NCBI RefSeq assembly: GCF_002261335.1 | Contig: NZ_NEVL01000003.1 | Location: forward strand, 744,001 to 808,000 | Source: Bordetella genomosp. 1 | Lineage (GTDB): Bacteria > Pseudomonadota > Gammaproteobacteria > Burkholderiales > Burkholderiaceae_B | Direction: 5' to 3' | Length of the DNA: 64,000 nucleotides | Shown: positions 1-7,020 of the stretch, piece after piece | How the letters are laid out: each line of letters opens with the position of its first letter | How positions within the stretch are numbered: the stretch's first letter is position 1 | Made by a program: the position numbers and the translations under genes | Notes under the pieces: model-generated | Databases searched by the model: none | Seen by the model: the letters and a program-made list of their open reading frames with translations, nothing else | What the model was told of the DNA's origin: nothing

Positions 1-882
1 GTCGGCCTGATCCTGCTGGAACGCCACGGCCGCAAGCGCCAGCGCTACGCCAACACGCAGCGCATGCGGCCGATGCAGCCGCGCCGGCTGCACGGCGTGC
101 ACGCGCTCGCCGCCATCGTGCTGGGCTGGATCCCGGTGCTGCTGGGCTTCGTCGCGCCGGCCGCCTATCTGGTCTGGGAAACCTACAAGCGCCTGCACCT
201 GGTGGGCGGCGTGTCGGGCCAGCTGCTGATGGGCCTGAAGAACACGCTGCTGATCGCCACCGCCGCCACCCTGATCACGCTGGTCTGCGGCCTGATCGTG
301 GCCTGGGCCGGCCGCACCCTGCGCGAGAGCGCGCGCTTCAATCCCGGCCGCATGTGCGCCCGCGTCGCGAGCCTGGGCTATGCCGTGCCCGGCACCGTGC
401 TGGCCATCGGCCTGCTCACACCCTTCACCTGGCTCGACCGGGTCGCCGGCGGCGTGTTCGGCGTCGAGGGCATGCTGCTGATGGGCAGCATGGGCGCGCT
501 GGTGGTTGCGTACACGATCCGCTTTCTTGCGATCTCGACGGGCGGCATCGAGGCCGGCCTGGCGCGCATCCCGGCCTCGCTCGAACAGGCCTCGCGCCTG
601 CTGGGCGAGACGCCCGCGGGCACGCTGCGCCGCGTCCACCTGCCGCTGCTGCGCCCGGCGCTGGCCGCGGCCGCGCTGCTGGTGTTCGTGGACACCATGA
701 AAGAACTGCCCGCCACCCTGCTGCTGCGACCGATGAACTTCGACACGCTGGCGACCTGGCTCTACGCCGAGGCCGCGCGCGGCACCTACGAAGAAGGCGC
801 GGTCGCCGCGCTGGCCATCGTGCTCGCGGGCCTGTTGCCGGTCATCCTGCTGGCACGAACGAATTTGAAGATGGGACATTGA
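1..882 (+). CDS. ABC transporter permease, ferric-iron type (5'-truncated by window)
   Basis: This is the C-terminal 293 residues of an inner-membrane permease; the open frame runs in from base 1, so the start lies outside the window. Several hydrophobic spans are visible, for example around the run LLIATAATLITLVCGLIVAW. A cytoplasmic EAA-type loop (EQASRLLGETP ... LPLLRP), which docks on the ATPase, precedes the last spans. The sequence resembles FbpB/SfuB-type iron(III) permeases, which are usually about 550 residues with two fused permease halves, so roughly half is seen. The stop is one base from the start of the ATPase gene, so the two form an operon. Substrate is inferred from family resemblance only; the binding protein is not in view. 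Confidence 0.85.
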   Translation, partial: VGLILLERHGRKRQRYANTQRMRPMQPRRLHGVHALAAIVLGWIPVLLGFVAPAAYLVWETYKRLHLVGGVSGQLLMGLKNTLLIATAATLITLVCGLIVAWAGRTLRESARFNPGRMCARVASLGYAVPGTVLAIGLLTPFTWLDRVAGGVFGVEGMLLMGSMGALVVAYTIRFLAISTGGIEAGLARIPASLEQASRLLGETPAGTLRRVHLPLLRPALAAAALLVFVDTMKELPATLLLRPMNFDTLATWLYAEAARGTYEEGAVAALAIVLAGLLPVILLARTNLKMGH

Positions 883-883
883 G

Positions 884-1663
884 ATGGCGTCCGACCTGCT
901 GGAAATTTCGCATATCGCACTGGGCTACGACACGCCCGCCGGCCTCAAGGCCGTGGTGCGCGACCTGAGCCTGGGCCTGCCCGCCGGCCACATCGGCTGC
1001 CTGCTGGGCGAGTCGGGCTGCGGCAAGACCACCGTGCTGCGCAGCATCGCCGGCTTCGAGCCCGTGCGCGCCGGCCACATCGCGCTGGGCGGCCGCGTGC
1101 TCTCGTCGGCCACCGAACAGGTGGCCCCCGAACGCCGCAACGTCGGCATGATGTTCCAGGATTACGCGCTGTTCCCGCACCTCACCGTGAGCGAAAACGT
1201 GGCCTTCGGCCTGCGCAAGATGGAGCGCGCGGCCCGCACCGCGCGCGTGACCGAAATGCTGGAGCTGGTCGGCCTGGCCCACGTCGCGGCCAGCTACCCC
1301 CACGAAATCTCCGGTGGCCAGCAGCAACGCGTCGCCCTGGCCCGCGCCCTCGCCCCCTCCCCCGAACTGCTGCTGCTCGACGAACCCTTCTCGAACCTCG
1401 ACGTCGACACCCGCGAACGCCTCGCCTTCGAGGTCCGCGACATCCTCAAGACCACCGGCCACACGGCCATCCTCGTCACCCACAACCAGGCCGAAGCCTT
1501 CGCCATCGCCGACCGCATCGGCATCATGGCCAATGGCGAGATCGCGCAGTGGGACACCCCCTACAACCTGCGCCACACCCCCGCCAGCGATTTCGTGCGC
1601 GACTTCATCCGGCGGGAGACGCTGGTGGAGCAACGGGAGCAGGCTTATGCGCGGGGAAGGTGA
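884..1663 (+). CDS. ABC transporter ATP-binding protein, iron(III)-type
   Basis: This 259-residue nucleotide-binding subunit powers the permease encoded just upstream. It has Walker A GESGCGKTT (residues 42-50), Q-loop FQDYALFPH (91-99), ABC signature SGGQQQRVALARAL (143-156), Walker B LLLLDEP (162-168), the D-loop SNLD and H-loop VTHN. The C-terminal regulatory tail is very short compared with about 350 residues in full FbpC proteins, so this is a short-form ATPase. The ATG lies one base after the permease stop. It is the last gene of the operon; the following 500 bases show a sharp drop in GC. The substrate could equally be another cation or small anion. Confidence 0.88.
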   Translation: MASDLLEISHIALGYDTPAGLKAVVRDLSLGLPAGHIGCLLGESGCGKTTVLRSIAGFEPVRAGHIALGGRVLSSATEQVAPERRNVGMMFQDYALFPHLTVSENVAFGLRKMERAARTARVTEMLELVGLAHVAASYPHEISGGQQQRVALARALAPSPELLLLDEPFSNLDVDTRERLAFEVRDILKTTGHTAILVTHNQAEAFAIADRIGIMANGEIAQWDTPYNLRHTPASDFVRDFIRRETLVEQREQAYARGR

Positions 1664-2171
1664 GGTGGGCAGTTTAGGTGTGGGGAATCGTTGAACGGAC
1701 GCGGTGCATATGCTGGCTTGCGAATGCCGGCAGTTCTTTGCAAGTGCATCGTCAAACAACCTGTTCTACCCGCTTGATCGCACCATGACAAAGCGTCTGT
1801 AGAGGGATATTCCCGAGCACCCACCGCGCATGCCGAACTGACTTTGGCCATGTTGCTGCAACGATTGGCACATGTCGATCAACCTGCGATAGCGTTGCTG
1901 CCCCGTCTACCACCATCTCCTCCCTTCAAAAACCAACTAAGTCTTCCCACAGAAGGGGGAGTCGATTTGGCCCGCCAGCAGCTCGTTCTGGACAGCTACG
2001 TCCGTCCGTAATTTCGCCTTTAGAAACAGTGCTCACACAAAGTAAATATTTTGTATAATAACGGAACCAACTGTTACCGACCTCGTCGGGCCGGCGTTAT
2101 TTTGCGGCAGTTGCTCTTACCTTTCGAAGATAAGAACTCGGTTTCCAAGAACAAAACTTAAGAGACATGCG
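1664..2171. other. Intergenic transition into the AT-rich island
   Basis: About 500 bases without a convincing gene. GC is still high up to about 1700 and then falls, reaching an AT-rich stretch around 2020-2060. Short open frames on either strand lack ribosome binding sites and family resemblance. The right end holds the putative promoter of the ATPase gene at 2172. I see no tRNA, integrase fragment or clear direct repeat here, so the left boundary of the island is not sharply defined. Confidence 0.5.
2031..2059 (+). promoter_or_regulatory. Putative sigma-70 promoter of the island ATPase
   Basis: A perfect TATAAT hexamer sits at 2054-2059 inside an AT-rich patch. The -35 match about 17-18 bases upstream is weak. 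Transcription would begin near 2067 and leave a leader of about 105 bases before the ATG at 2172. Confidence 0.4.
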
Positions 2172-4181
2172 ATGAACGATCAAGAGAAGGCGCCAGGTGT
2201 TCGACCGGGGTTCCATCCAGCGTTTGATATGCAGCCCTTCAGCGAGACGGAGCGTGGAATCCTTCAGAACCTTTCATCAGAGTTCTATCTGACGAGTCAC
2301 GGAGGCAATGCGTTTCTCGGAAAGAATGCGCAGTATCGCTACTTCCTCCTTAAGGTGCCGAGCGAATATGCCGAAGAATTTAACCTGAAACGAGAAGTCG
2401 TATGCATTTTTTCTGCATATCCGAACTTTGAGCCGCGCGCCCTTGACGTCTACGAGGTCGCTCTCCGTCAGTATCAAGGGTTACGCCTTGAGAATGTAAG
2501 TCGAATCCTGATTGCTTCCGATCCAGAAGTCGAAACGGCCCTGAATGACTTGATCAAGTCGAACCCAGAACAGCCAATCATCATCCCATTCACATACTCC
2601 GAACTCGGAAAAGCGGTTTCGCCGAACTTTCTGCGCGCACGATTTCGGAAGTATTTTTTCACACGCAATCTGTTCAATTTCTTTTCGCCGCTCCAACGGG
2701 ATTTGTACTTTTTCGGACGAACACAAAAAGTCCAGCATCTCATCGCACGCTATGAGAGCAGCGAGAACTCGGGCTTATTTGGCCTCCGCCGCAGCGGCAA
2801 GACGTCTGTAATCTACGGAGTGGAAAGGGCGATGTCCGCACGCGGCAAGCGAACCGTGACTGTCGACTGCCAAAGCCCTAGCGTCCATCAACTCAGATGG
2901 AATGAGCTTCTACATAAGGTTGTGGAAGAAGTTCACAAAGCCAAAGAGTCAAAAATCCGACTCTCGGAGCGGTCGTCGTACACACCTCAAGATGCAGCCT
3001 CATTATTCGAGCAGGAGATGTTGCGGGTCCATGCATCGAAGAAGGCTGAGTCGATTCTGCTTATTTTTGACGAGATCGAACGCATCTCACCTGATACCGC
3101 GTCTTCGGAACATTGGCGAAGCCAGGACGATTTCGTGTTCTTTTGGCAATCCATGCGGGCTTTCTTCCAACGAAATCGGGGCGTATTTACGTTCATGATC
3201 GTTGGAACCAATCCGGCGTGCATTGAGGCCAGTACGGTAAATGGGCAAGACAACCCTATATTTGGGTCGCTACCGCGCGACTACCTTACTCCCTTCGATG
3301 CTGACCAAGTAGCAGAGATGGTAGGCCGACTTGGACGGTACATGGGACTTACATTTGATCCTATGCTCTTTGGGCGACTCACGGACGACTTCGGAGGGCA
3401 TCCCTTCCTGATTCGTCAAGTGTGTAGTGAGATTCATGATCTAGCCCCGCGCGATCGCCCTGCCTGGGTAGATAAACCATTGTATGAACAGGCCGTCGGA
3501 AGCTTCAAGAAAAAGTCCGCTCCGTATCTGAGCATGATCCTTGATGTGCTAGCAGAACAGTACAAGGACGAGTATGAAATGCTGAGGTATTTGGCGTCTG
3601 GTGACGTCGATGCATTTAACGAACTTGCTCATGATAGCGATGCATATACGGACCACCTTCGTGGCTACGGTTTGGTCACAGTTTCGGAACACGGCACTTC
3701 ATTTCGCATCGAATGCATCAAGGATTTCATGCTTGATCGGCATAAATACATGTCGCTATCGCTGTCAGCAGAACAACGCGAGGCTGAAGTCAGCGAGAGA
3801 CGTATTCGCCTTGAGCAAGGCTTTCGCAAGATCATTCGCAACCAACTCAAGGCCGCGTTTGGCGCTAAAGTTGCGCGCGAGAAGCTGTTGGCGGCGGTAC
3901 CTGAAAAGCGCCGTGAGAACTTAAGTGGATTCGATCTCGATCAAATTTTTGCTCCGAATGATAGTCCGCTTTACCTTTTGGAACTAATACAACTCCTGTC
4001 TCGCGAGTGGGAATCTTTCAAGCACATATTTCCCTTCGAGAAGGACAAGGCAGTTTGGATGTTGACAGAAATCAACTCGATGAGGCGCGATGCGCATTCA
4101 AATGAAATATCTAGCGAAGCTTTGAATGACCTCCGCATTTTCTTCGGAAGATTCGATCCCGTGATCGATGAGTGGGCTTGA
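2172..4181 (+). CDS. AAA/STAND-like ATPase with HEPN-like C-terminus (putative defence protein)
   Basis: A 669-residue cytoplasmic protein that I cannot assign to a named system. Residues 1-175 form an unrecognised alpha/beta region. A pre-AAA segment FFGRTQKVQHLI (180-191) leads to Walker A GLRRSGKT (204-211), Walker B ILLIFDE (295-301), a sensor-like IVGTN (343-347) and GGHPFLIRQV (408-417), the pattern of ORC/Cdc6-like and STAND ATPases. After a winged-helix-like stretch (460-530), the last 120 residues end in NSMRRDAHSN (635-644), which resembles the R-x(3-4)-H core of HEPN domains of the Swt1 type. Codon use and GC are unlike the neighbours, which points to transfer. The start has only a weak AAGAG site. 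Function as an abortive-infection or sensing ATPase is inference. Confidence 0.7.
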   Translation: MNDQEKAPGVRPGFHPAFDMQPFSETERGILQNLSSEFYLTSHGGNAFLGKNAQYRYFLLKVPSEYAEEFNLKREVVCIFSAYPNFEPRALDVYEVALRQYQGLRLENVSRILIASDPEVETALNDLIKSNPEQPIIIPFTYSELGKAVSPNFLRARFRKYFFTRNLFNFFSPLQRDLYFFGRTQKVQHLIARYESSENSGLFGLRRSGKTSVIYGVERAMSARGKRTVTVDCQSPSVHQLRWNELLHKVVEEVHKAKESKIRLSERSSYTPQDAASLFEQEMLRVHASKKAESILLIFDEIERISPDTASSEHWRSQDDFVFFWQSMRAFFQRNRGVFTFMIVGTNPACIEASTVNGQDNPIFGSLPRDYLTPFDADQVAEMVGRLGRYMGLTFDPMLFGRLTDDFGGHPFLIRQVCSEIHDLAPRDRPAWVDKPLYEQAVGSFKKKSAPYLSMILDVLAEQYKDEYEMLRYLASGDVDAFNELAHDSDAYTDHLRGYGLVTVSEHGTSFRIECIKDFMLDRHKYMSLSLSAEQREAEVSERRIRLEQGFRKIIRNQLKAAFGAKVAREKLLAAVPEKRRENLSGFDLDQIFAPNDSPLYLLELIQLLSREWESFKHIFPFEKDKAVWMLTEINSMRRDAHSNEISSEALNDLRIFFGRFDPVIDEWA

Positions 4182-4443
4182 AGACTTTCTCCAAGACTGA
4201 TATGCGTCAACACAGCATTAGGGCGTCATGTCGCGAGCCATGCGACCGAGCCTGTGCCAACTCCAGCGGAATGCATCCAGCCAACTTTGAGTAGCAGGGT
4301 TTAGGCTTCGACACGAAGTCGGCTAGGGGTGCAACGGCCGAGATCAGCCCTCCACAGCTCCGGCGCACCATACCGCCGCACATGAGTGCACAAAGACTAA
4401 GTTCTGCGCTCCCCGAAAAGAAGGGAACGCGCAACCAACCCAA

Positions 4444-4467
4444 AAAACCGGCCACGCGGCCGGTTTT
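4444..4467 (-). terminator. Intrinsic terminator kept with the pirin remnant
   Basis: Perfect 10-bp stem AAAACCGGCC / GGCCGGTTTT with a 4-base loop. Read leftwards it is followed by a run of T. It is the same hairpin that terminates the intact pirin gene (6060-6083), and here it lies downstream of the two-gene minus-strand cassette (5873-4899), so it probably terminates that transcript. Confidence 0.7.
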
Positions 4468-4497
4468 CATTCCTGCAAGCGAGCGTGTTACCCCCCC

Positions 4498-4770
4498 TCA
4501 CCCCTTAACCGCCGGCAACGGAATGAACTCGCTTTCATCCCCCGGCACGATCAGATCGAAGCGGGTGCGGGTCCAGTCGTCCTTGGCTTGTACAATACGG
4601 TCCTTGTTGCCGGAGACGAGGTCCGCCCGGTGAAGCGCGCCGTTCTGCGGTTCTCGCAGCACAGCGCAGTCCGAGGGCGCTCAGACCCTCAGGCATGATC
4701 CAACAACGGGGCTTGAGGGCGACGCCGTCGACCTCGACCTAGCGCTGCTTTAGGTAGGTTGGCCGCTCTG
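4498..4770 (-). pseudogene. Remnant of pirin 3' end
   Basis: Read leftwards, the last 40 codons still translate in frame to a pirin tail ending PGDESEFIPLPAVKG and a TGA, matching the intact pirin at 6112-7020 with a few substitutions (for example E to V, E to D and Q to L) and several silent changes. Upstream of about 4620 the frame is lost through indels and mismatches. The silent changes suggest that this copy diverged while still coding, so it may descend from a foreign or ancestral pirin allele rather than a recent duplication. No start or metal-binding half is present, so it cannot make a functional protein. Confidence 0.75.
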
Positions 4771-4898
4771 CCATATACGCGACCGGATCTTGCCGCGGGC
4801 CGGCTTGTATTTGGATGACTCGTCGCCAGTAAGGCATCAAATTACTCTTTCGGAGAGCCCGTCGAAAAACATGGCCAGAAGCTTTATTCACAGCGGCA

Positions 4899-5426
4899 TC
4901 ACTGACTTTTAGCCCTCATTATGAGCATTTCTGCAAAATCATAGGCTCTGTTCTTTATTTGTTCGGCGACTGCGTTTTCCGTCTGAACAATCGGATTTTC
5001 AATCCAAAGCCTTTCCTGCCATGGCAAAGCCGAAATCGCTCTGGCCGCCTCATCAAATCCATTACTCCAGAATACTCCGGCCACGTTGTAGCTTCGCCGA
5101 TACAGTTGGCCAACAAGTGCCTCCACATCTTTAATGGATGAGCCGTGTGAATGCGATGAAAGAATGCAGATATCCGCATCGCAGAAAAATTTCTTGAAAT
5201 AGTTTTCTGGACTCAAATAGGTAGCTCGCATTTCCTGGAAGCTACGATTCGCTGTGAACAGCGTTTGGAGTCTCTTTGGCGCTCTAGGATGCCGAATATC
5301 TTTAAGCGTGTTTTTGGGAAGTCGTTTATACGACTCTTGACAGAGGGCCTGCACTAAAAACCTCTGGAAAGATGTTTTCCCTGTGTTGTTATCACCAATA
5401 AGCACATACGCCCAGTTCGAGAACAT
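4899..5426 (-). CDS. P-loop NTPase-like protein of unknown function
   Basis: A 175-residue protein with a Walker A motif GDNNTGKT at residues 11-18, right at the N-terminus (VLIGDNNTGKTSFQRFL). A hydrophobic strand DADICILSSHSHG could be the Walker B equivalent, but it lacks the usual acidic pair. I chose the ATG at 5426 because GAGGAA lies 6-8 bases upstream; an in-frame GTG at 5447 would add seven residues. It is the second gene of a minus-strand pair, 48 bases after the 132-residue partner, and both are AT-rich. The family is not recognised. It could be a small regulatory or defence NTPase whose partner supplies the effector or DNA-binding part; that is inference. Confidence 0.65.
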   Translation of the reverse strand: MFSNWAYVLIGDNNTGKTSFQRFLVQALCQESYKRLPKNTLKDIRHPRAPKRLQTLFTANRSFQEMRATYLSPENYFKKFFCDADICILSSHSHGSSIKDVEALVGQLYRRSYNVAGVFWSNGFDEAARAISALPWQERLWIENPIVQTENAVAEQIKNRAYDFAEMLIMRAKSQ

Positions 5427-5474
5427 TCCGACTTCCTCACATAGCACGATGAGTGCCCTCTATTCGATGAACGA

Positions 5475-5873
5475 TTAGATCAGCCACGTTGCATTAGGTT
5501 GGGTGCCGTCCACCCCTAGAATTCCCAATGCAGCCAAGATCGGGACTACGTAGTTGACAACTCTAGTGTTACCGTTGGCTTCTCGCGCGGCCATGCAAAG
5601 AGGACCTGAATGTTCAGCAGTCTGGTTCGAGCGGATTTCGCATGCGTTCGAGGCACCGTGCCCATGCGCGACTAGATAACGTAACACCGCCAAAAATGCC
5701 GTTCGGCGAATGATTATCGGAGAACCTCCCGCCGTTGCGATTTCCACAGCATCGCGGTCGACCGCTTCTACGGTAAAGGCCCGACCGACTGCATCATCGG
5801 GCGTTCTTAAATCAGTCAATCCTTCAATTCTTGGCCAAACATGAAGGAGAGAGTTATTCAACAACGCGTCCAT
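5475..5873 (-). CDS. Hypothetical protein, partner of the P-loop protein
   Basis: A 132-residue protein with no recognised family. The N-terminal 50 residues (LLHVWPRIEGLTDL ...) look like a compact beta-rich unit. The C-terminal half, including RRTAFLAVLRYLVAHGH and RVVNYVVPILAALGILG, has the helix spacing of a winged-helix fold. No signal peptide or membrane span is seen. The start has AAAGGTG six bases upstream. It is first in a two-gene minus-strand unit with a possible promoter at 5912-5940, and it is bracketed with its partner by the duplicated pirin 3' ends. Low GC relative to flanking genes suggests acquisition by transfer. Confidence 0.6.
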   Translation of the reverse strand: MDALLNNSLLHVWPRIEGLTDLRTPDDAVGRAFTVEAVDRDAVEIATAGGSPIIIRRTAFLAVLRYLVAHGHGASNACEIRSNQTAEHSGPLCMAAREANGNTRVVNYVVPILAALGILGVDGTQPNATWLI

Positions 5874-5911
5874 ATAGTCACCTTTCTACGTTGAACCAAT
5901 GAGTGAAGCAG

Positions 5912-5940
5912 ATAGTAACTTGTTGTGACATAAAGAACAA
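5912..5940 (-). promoter_or_regulatory. Possible promoter of the two-gene cassette
   Basis: On the minus strand TTGTTC (5940-5935) and TACTAT (5917-5912) are separated by 17 bases, 38 bases before the ATG at 5873. Both hexamers are partial matches to the sigma-70 consensus. Confidence 0.35.
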
Positions 5941-6057
5941 GAAGCATGGTAGATCCATTTCAGATCAAAAGCAGCCTCCGCGCCCGATCCCAAGCCCGCC
6001 TGCGCACCTTCATGTAAATTTATGAGAGTTGCGCATTAAGTGCGCGTTCTCGCGCAA

Positions 6058-6412
6058 GAAAAACCGGCCCTGCGGCCGGTTTTAATTCCTGCAAGCGAAC
6101 CTATACCCCCCTCACCCCTTAACCGCCGGCAACGGAATGAACTCACTCTCATCCCCCGGCACGATCTGGTCGAAGCGGGTGCGGGTCCATTCGTCTTTGG
6201 CTTGTTCGATGCGGTCCTTGCTGCTGGAGACGAAGTTCCACCAGATGAAGCGCGGGCCGTCGAGGGGTTCGCCGCCGAGCACGGCGAAGCGGGCGGCGCT
6301 CAGGGCCTTGAGCGTGACCGGACAGCCGGGCTTGAAGACGATCAGGCGGCCGGGTTCGAAGACGACGCCGTCGACCTCGACCTGCCCTTGCACCAGGTAG
6401 GCGGCGCGTTCT
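6058..6412. repeat. Direct repeat copy B: 3' end of the intact pirin gene plus terminator
   Basis: This is the intact counterpart of the degenerate segment 4442-4770. It covers the last 100 codons of the pirin gene and its terminator. Its left edge coincides with the change from AT-rich island to GC-rich chromosome. Confidence 0.75.
6060..6083 (-). terminator. Intrinsic terminator of the pirin gene
   Basis: Perfect 10-bp stem AAAACCGGCC / GGCCGGTTTT with a CTGC loop, followed leftwards by TTTTTC. It begins 28 bases after the pirin stop and is duplicated at 4444-4467. Confidence 0.8.
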
Positions 6413-7020
6413 TCGTATTGCGCGTCCAGGTCAAGGCGTGCGCCGGCCTGCATCTGGACGTCGCCGTAGAACAGCGGCGACAGGGTCTTCACCTTGGAGG
6501 TCTGGCCGAACAGCGTGCCGGCGACGACCTGGGCGCGCACGCCCTCGCCTTCGACCACGGGCTGCGCGTCGAGGCCGTAGTGGGTGAAGCCAGGATCGGT
6601 TTCCTCGTGCTGGCGCGGCAGGGCCACCCAGGTCTGCAGGCCGAACAGGCGCTGCGGGCCCTTCCGACTCTCGGGCGAGGAGCGCTCGGAGTGGACGATG
6701 CCGCGGCCGGCGGTCATCCAGTTGACTTCGCCCGGGCTGATGAGCTGCACGTGGCCCACGCCGTCGCGGTGCACGATGCCGCCTTCATACAGGTACGTGA
6801 CCGTCTCCAGGCCGATGTGCGGGTGGGGCCGCACGTCCATGCCGGCGTTGGCCGGGAACAGGGCCGGGCCCATTTCGTCGAGGAACACGAAGGCGCCCAC
6901 CGAGCGGCGTTGCGCCGAGGGCAGCGCGCGCTTCACTTCGAAGCCGCCGAGGTCGGAGGAGCGCGGCACGACGACGGTGTCGACGGCGCTGGCGGGGTCG
7001 GAATGGGAGAGATCGGACAT
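6112..7020 (-). CDS. Pirin family protein
   Basis: A 302-residue bicupin of the pirin family. The metal-binding residues of the N-terminal cupin are visible in RPHPHIGLETVTYL (two His) and GRGIVHSE (His and Glu), which in known pirins hold iron or another divalent metal. The C-terminal cupin (about 180-280) is present. Bacterial pirins have been linked to quercetin dioxygenase activity and to redox control of pyruvate metabolism; which applies here cannot be told. It lies 106 bases downstream of a second, shorter pirin on the same strand. Its 3' end and terminator are duplicated 1.6 kb away, marking it as an insertion site for the island. Confidence 0.9.
   Translation of the reverse strand: MSDLSHSDPASAVDTVVVPRSSDLGGFEVKRALPSAQRRSVGAFVFLDEMGPALFPANAGMDVRPHPHIGLETVTYLYEGGIVHRDGVGHVQLISPGEVNWMTAGRGIVHSERSSPESRKGPQRLFGLQTWVALPRQHEETDPGFTHYGLDAQPVVEGEGVRAQVVAGTLFGQTSKVKTLSPLFYGDVQMQAGARLDLDAQYEERAAYLVQGQVEVDGVVFEPGRLIVFKPGCPVTLKALSAARFAVLGGEPLDGPRFIWWNFVSSSKDRIEQAKDEWTRTRFDQIVPGDESEFIPLPAVKG

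Follow-up and report, generated by a model that had tools for sequence, protein, structure and literature searches.

An intact pirin gene and a set of ABC-transporter genes converge near the left end of the window, by which we mean the whole 64,000-nucleotide stretch of DNA that was analysed. Between them lies a block of foreign DNA, here called the islet, that contains a second, decayed copy of the pirin 3' end. The features of the locus are as follows.

1-1662, plus strand: ABC-transporter genes, forming the left flank of the empty site found in relatives (ATPase gene at 884-1663; ABC_tran, E 6e-35)
1663-6058, no strand assigned: foreign block (islet) that the empty sites lack; G+C content about 50% if the pirin remnant is left out
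2172-4181, plus strand: gene for a 669-aa AAA_22/STAND-like ATPase of sporadic occurrence
4443-4506, minus strand: terminator hairpin and spacer, copy 1
4507-4882, minus strand: decayed pirin 3' end, approximately codons 166-302; it contains one stop and a shift of frame and has lost about 24 nt
4899-5447, minus strand: gene for a 182-aa protein with a presumed P-loop; no family above cut-off
5475-5873, minus strand: gene for a 132-aa protein of an unnamed, sporadic family that is partly prophage-borne
6059-6111, minus strand: terminator hairpin and spacer, copy 2
6112-7020, minus strand: intact pirin gene, 302 aa (Pirin, E 1e-32; Pirin_C, E 3e-27)

Window positions 4443-4882 are a decayed, same-orientation copy of 6059-6525, which comprises the pirin 3' end and the terminator hairpin. 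A preliminary description of this DNA had proposed such a direct repeat, and the repeat is real: positions 4492-4622 match 6106-6236 with 91% identity over 131 nt, and a local alignment of 4442-4800 with 6058-6430 reached a score of 296, compared to a maximum of 32 among 300 shuffles. Moreover, a protein search of the genome itself found two displaced pieces of pirin, one at 4501-4680 that matches residues 241-302 (E 2e-16) and one at 4613-4882 that matches residues 166-258 (E 9e-6, with one stop). The remnant had been placed at 4442-4770 and described as the last 100 pirin codons plus terminator; the duplication holds, but its end lies about 110 bp further on. Homology to pirin is detectable to approximately position 4882, which corresponds to about pirin codon 166, and none of 500 shuffles matched the score of the outermost part (4772-4882, 111 nt). 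The remnant therefore covers approximately the last 137 pirin codons together with the terminator. The terminator-spacer part of the repeat (4443-4502 against 6059-6118) is 82% identical without gaps, and no repeats of at least 16 nt were found within 1600-6130 other than the pirin repeat and its hairpins. Chance similarity between 4443-4882 and pirin, which the preliminary description had itself considered, is ruled out by the shuffles, by the protein search and by a DNA search of 268 genomes of the family (see below).

The G+C content is about 70% in the flanks, drops to about 50% after position 1650 or so and recovers at about 6150, with a rise inside the block at the remnant and just before it. 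We compared the window with the genomes of 14 other species of the genus, the sample containing one genome per species and each from a species other than that of the window (whose own genome, G000, is 5.6 Mb in size). Pirin is present in all 15 genomes, the window's own included. Empty sites, which the preliminary description had suggested looking for, are present in 10 of the 14 others (G002-G007, G009-G011 and G014): there the 3' ends of the ABC-transporter gene and of pirin face each other, some tens of bases apart. DNA matches to these sites stop at 1617-1670 and restart at 6124-6128, with 16-73 bases in between in the relative. Since the matches stop at the end of the ABC gene and restart at the end of pirin, the whole of approximately 1663-6058 was inserted. 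Thus, the earlier statement that only the AT-rich minus-strand pair at 4899-5873 lies between the repeats is accurate, but the insertion as a whole is larger, with its left edge at about 1663. In G008, G012 and G013 pirin is not syntenic and has a different neighbour (which we take to be a reductase-like ORF), and these three genomes are uninformative about the empty site for that reason. No second genomic copy of the DNA to the left of the first hairpin or to the right of the ABC gene was found at E 0.01.

In the remaining genome of the genus, G001, the ABC gene and pirin lie about 8.9 kb apart with other cargo between them and the ABC gene on the cargo's far side; this insertion at the convergent junction (L033, L047) holds an ORF of 2354 aa, presumably adhesin-like, and no second pirin end was found in it. 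A duplicated arrangement common to all relatives, with neither an empty site nor other cargo, would have spoken against insertion according to the preliminary description, and it is not what the genus displays. To widen the comparison, the remnant was searched as DNA against the 268 family genomes. (Note that two candidates were scored per genome, which makes this search less than exhaustive, and that strongly decayed or distant copies would be missed by it.) Matches occurred in 38 of the 268 genomes and yielded 29 further loci, 19 of them from a neighbouring genus, g2. Two of these 19 loci are empty, with the genes about 45 bases apart (L065 and L069, in G049 and G053), and 17 have at least 1.1 kb between the genes: 11 have a gap of approximately 1.1-1.3 kb and six have no ABC match within the 1.5-kb flank. 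Larger stretches were examined for 12 of the 17, namely all six without an ABC match and six of the other 11. These 12 loci (L087-L098) have gaps of 1.1-5.3 kb containing varied ORFs, several of which we take to be receptor-, hydrolase- or regulator-like. None of the 12 has a second pirin end, one of them having just a 24-nt inverted self-match, and G000 alone of the 268 genomes, at two candidates each, has a second pirin-derived place; second matches to the remnant in G030, G041 and G045 span 26-36 nt and fall at the hairpin. The ABC/pirin junction is permissive and often carries cargo. The expectation that other cargo would occur at the same place is therefore borne out, by G001 and by the 17 loci of the neighbouring genus, but other cargo between two repeats was found in neither G001 nor the 12 larger stretches nor elsewhere among the 268 genomes at two candidates each. 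Because cargo is common and the repeat-flanked state was seen only here, these comparisons establish a permissive junction and not a repeat-flanked integration hotspot.

The two copies of the pirin end have diverged unevenly. Over 6059-6236 the repeat alignment has 159 matches, 18 mismatches and 3 gap columns, and over 6237-6525 it has 188 matches, 59 mismatches and 56 gap columns (Fisher p = 3e-4 for substitutions). Note that the 76% identity over 6237-6525 is inflated by gaps, shuffled sequence averaging 74% with the same aligner; homology over this part thus rests on the alignment score, which is 130 compared to 41 or less in 200 shuffles. Within the block 6121-6236 the copies differ by 12 substitutions, which we polarised by the majority of the 14 relatives. 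Eight fall on the remnant side, five amino-acid-changing and three silent, and at each of the five replacements the 14 relatives agree with the base of the window's own pirin. Four fall on the side of the intact gene, one replacement (Glu/Asp) and three silent. Three silent substitutions are ambiguous in polarity because the relatives vary at those columns. Constraint on the remnant is relaxed, and the substitution pattern fits one relaxed copy, the remnant, and one copy under selection, the intact pirin gene. The earlier suggestion that silent changes in the remnant favour a diverged allele is thus half borne out, given five replacements to three silent changes in the remnant and one to three in the intact gene; the two copies may nevertheless have diverged as two alleles before the event.

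The closest relative of the remnant is the window's own pirin gene. In a multiple alignment the three segments of the remnant are 89, 61 and 48% identical to it, and all three are at least as close to it as to the pirin of any of the 14 relatives, the last segment being tied with G004. Consistent with this, the best match of the remnant among the 268 family genomes is the same gene (81% over about 280 nt, E 9e-68), the next-best having an E value of 3e-25. An origin of the remnant in another genus is therefore unlikely. The preliminary description had entertained a foreign pirin allele, and an allele from a foreign genus is unlikely for the same reason. Part of the gradient along the remnant may be older divergence under selection, since functional pirins of several relatives have a mild gradient as well: their last 37 codons are better conserved than the stretches that follow, with identities to the window's own pirin of 82, 70 and 73% in L029, 82, 71 and 72% in L024, and 84, 80 and 80% in L021. 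The remainder of the gradient may reflect partial homogenisation between the two copies, since the event, over the terminator and the final 40 codons. We also considered whether the intact gene carries an imported, more distant 3' end. Its 3' end and the adjoining 300 nt are about equally distant from relatives; identity to L021 is 79% for the 3' end, 80% for the next 300 nt and 85% thereafter, and three others have no drop. Identity to L021 is 75% over the first 100 nt of the 3' end and 79-87% over the eight 100-nt windows that come after; the G+C content of these first 100 nt is 60%, compared to 66-75% elsewhere in the gene. Similar dips occur in several relatives, and such an import is unsupported.

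The cargo of the islet is sporadic. The 669-aa protein passes the cut-off for AAA_22 (E 4e-7) and narrowly misses that for nSTAND1. It occurs in the window's own genome and two others among the 268 of the family, one of these relatives adjoining ParA/ParB-like genes as judged by eye. Further relatives are on 22 plasmid records, 16 of them from Klebsiella and 18 predicted to be conjugative, with identities of 23.5-36.5% among the 20 matches listed. The 182-aa protein contains the sequence GDNNTGKTS, which we take to be a P-loop motif. It was found in the window's own genome alone among the 268, and a single-sequence search returned no plasmid, phage or viral-contig match. Three weak matches (E 0.002-0.008) were obtained among 249 genomes of the phylum (G341, G686 and G798); the one in G341, presumably TsaE-like, was rejected as a relative, the likeness being the common P-loop only. 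The 132-aa protein has no Pfam, NCBIfam or PADLOC family, a sole PHROG match at E 0.54, and no plasmid, phage or viral-contig match by single sequence. Its family is present in the window's own genome and two others among the 268, G077, where the relative appears to sit between phage tail-type genes, and G035, where it is near genes that we take to be of antirepressor and tail type. Searches with an alignment of the family returned one viral contig that is nearly the same as the G035 locus, two loci in a genome collection, one in the G035 record and the other where a MAG contig ends, and one further genome among 399 of an order sample. Matches of the 182-aa and 132-aa proteins in the PDB had E values of 0.048 or worse and were set aside. 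The genes for these two proteins are on one strand, 27 nt apart, and may be co-transcribed.

We lean towards the view that the islet arose from at least two insertions between the convergent genes, the second of which was anchored by homology in pirin, ended in an illegitimate joint and stranded the old pirin tail. The locus would then most likely be what DNA uptake and recombination left behind, and not a mobile element of a new kind. A segment with the gene for the 669-aa ATPase and a terminator would have entered between the ABC-transporter gene and pirin. Later, DNA from a close relative, comprising the two-gene cassette, that same terminator and the 3' end of pirin, would have recombined into the locus. 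One side of it would have entered by homologous exchange inside pirin, and the other would have been joined illegitimately near pirin codon 166. This could have occurred by homology-facilitated illegitimate recombination, in which the illegitimate joint is often at a few bases of microhomology, or by one crossover with a small circular DNA that bore part of pirin; both routes would give the same product. Since a pirin end came with the incoming DNA, the gene would have remained intact, and the recipient's old tail, stranded at 4443-4882, would have decayed. The partial homogenisation suggested above, if it took place, would have come last. The hairpin is absent from all 10 empty sites of the genus, with up to three mismatches allowed, and is present in both copies within the window, which is most simply explained if it was already beside pirin when the duplication took place; the proposed order of the two insertions derives from this argument only. 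That the repeated pirin end is closest to the window's own pirin is consistent with, and does not prove, one homologous joint. A donor allele with the cassette, the hairpin and pirin without the remnant was not seen in the sample of one genome per species.

The same final order would result if pirin and its terminator had first been duplicated in tandem, the spare copy had decayed and the two-gene cassette had later replaced its 5' half. This sequence of events, which would let the part of the remnant far from the gene end have decayed for longer, strikes us as rather unlikely: it requires more events, and 14 of the 15 genomes of the genus have a single pirin match at E 1e-60 or better, the second match in G001 having 49% identity and lying on another contig; a conspecific outside this sample may differ. 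We give slightly less credence to the idea that the islet is the relic of a satellite or site-specific integrative element that attached at the 3' region of pirin, brought a replacement end with it and no longer has its integrase. The geometry matches that of prophage e14 in icd (Hill et al. 1989), where a duplicated gene end likewise flanks the insert and the gene is restored; relatives of the 132-aa protein are inside what we take to be prophage-like gene clusters, and the ABC/pirin junction is variable in the family. However, no integrase-like ORF of at least 60 aa was seen by eye within 1663-6058, which extends to the larger block the earlier observation that the cassette contains none, and the three larger proteins of the block matched no integrase family in Pfam, PADLOC, NCBIfam or PHROGs. 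No att core was identified; the homology spans about 440 bp, and a typical att core is much shorter. Repeat-flanked cargo at pirin was not encountered elsewhere (268 genomes at two candidates each; none of 12 loci), and the cassette proteins are without plasmid, phage or viral-contig matches by single sequence, the 132-aa alignment leading to one viral contig. Of the earlier proposal, the part in which incoming DNA brought its own pirin end and displaced the old one holds up, but a site-specific element or satellite is left without positive evidence, given the lack of both an integrase-like ORF and an att core. A further possibility, which we consider very unlikely, is that the cassette brought along the tail of another, foreign pirin gene, now seen as the remnant. 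The 61 and 48% identity of its distal parts to the window's own pirin might suggest this, but the own pirin is closest or tied in all three segments (89, 61 and 48%) and ranked first by a wide margin in the 268-genome DNA search.

The mechanism that we favour, entry anchored by homology in pirin, is mostly of a known kind. Variable cargo at convergent-gene junctions is familiar from genomics, and the ABC/pirin junction is likewise empty or occupied by different genes across relatives; unlike at such junctions generally, a duplicated gene end is found here, in this genome only within the searches made. A two-ended homology-facilitated illegitimate mechanism is described in PMC3240628, and PMC5361080 proposes homology-facilitated illegitimate recombination as the source of the 3' ends that lie displaced, or "orphaned", in T6SS and Rhs loci. 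As in those loci, the module here would have been anchored by homology, with the old part of the gene displaced but kept adjacent and no need for an integrase. In contrast to the polymorphic effector genes of T6SS and Rhs loci, with their strings of ends, the anchor here is the conserved pirin gene, whose product is whole, and there is one displaced end. For prophage e14 of E. coli MG1655, PMC11148124 describes a duplicate of the icd end that is 165 bp long and differs by 12 nucleotide exchanges. The e14 case is like the pirin locus in that a new 3' end is supplied, the old end is displaced and there are a dozen nucleotide exchanges; it differs in having an integrase gene and a 165-bp duplicate with its frame intact, whereas no integrase was seen here and the duplicate is about 440 bp long, decayed and frameshifted. 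A narrow literature search on pirin as a genomic-island or insertion site returned no matching title.

The locus is a fairly clean fossil of accessory genes entering beside a core gene without a visible recombinase, in which the empty sites, the decaying stranded tail and the restored intact gene are visible together. If the repeats still recombine, cargo could be gained and lost simply, via homology alone. It is highly improbable, though, that the pirin tail and terminator serve as lasting repeats whose recombination keeps the last 40 codons homogenised and renders the two-gene cassette excisable by RecA, free of any integrase and mobile between strains via the homology of a core-gene tail.

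As for what the cargo does, a defence role may be guessed at from the company of a STAND ATPase, a P-loop protein and a prophage setting. STAND-like ATPases of approximately 670-690 aa (2172-4181 of the window, L048:6359-8377 and L049:5681-7756) are sporadic, with members on Klebsiella plasmids and adjoining ParA/ParB-like genes, and may be single-gene defence proteins. The 132-aa family shares the core EIRS...GPLC...INYILPILA, present at 5475-5873 of the window, L039:5942-6331, L040:5525-6049 and L041:5851-6378 and, in weaker form, at L085:5158-5706; L039 is among genes that we take to be of phage tail type, and L040 and L041 are near a presumed antirepressor-type gene. At L043:5218-6282, the end of a MAG contig, an ORF that we assume to be SPFH-like runs in frame into the family domain. 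(This fusion is probably an assembly artefact, and L043 was excluded from the second alignment of the family on that suspicion.) Unnamed and found in two prophage-like settings, the 132-aa family may merit separate study.
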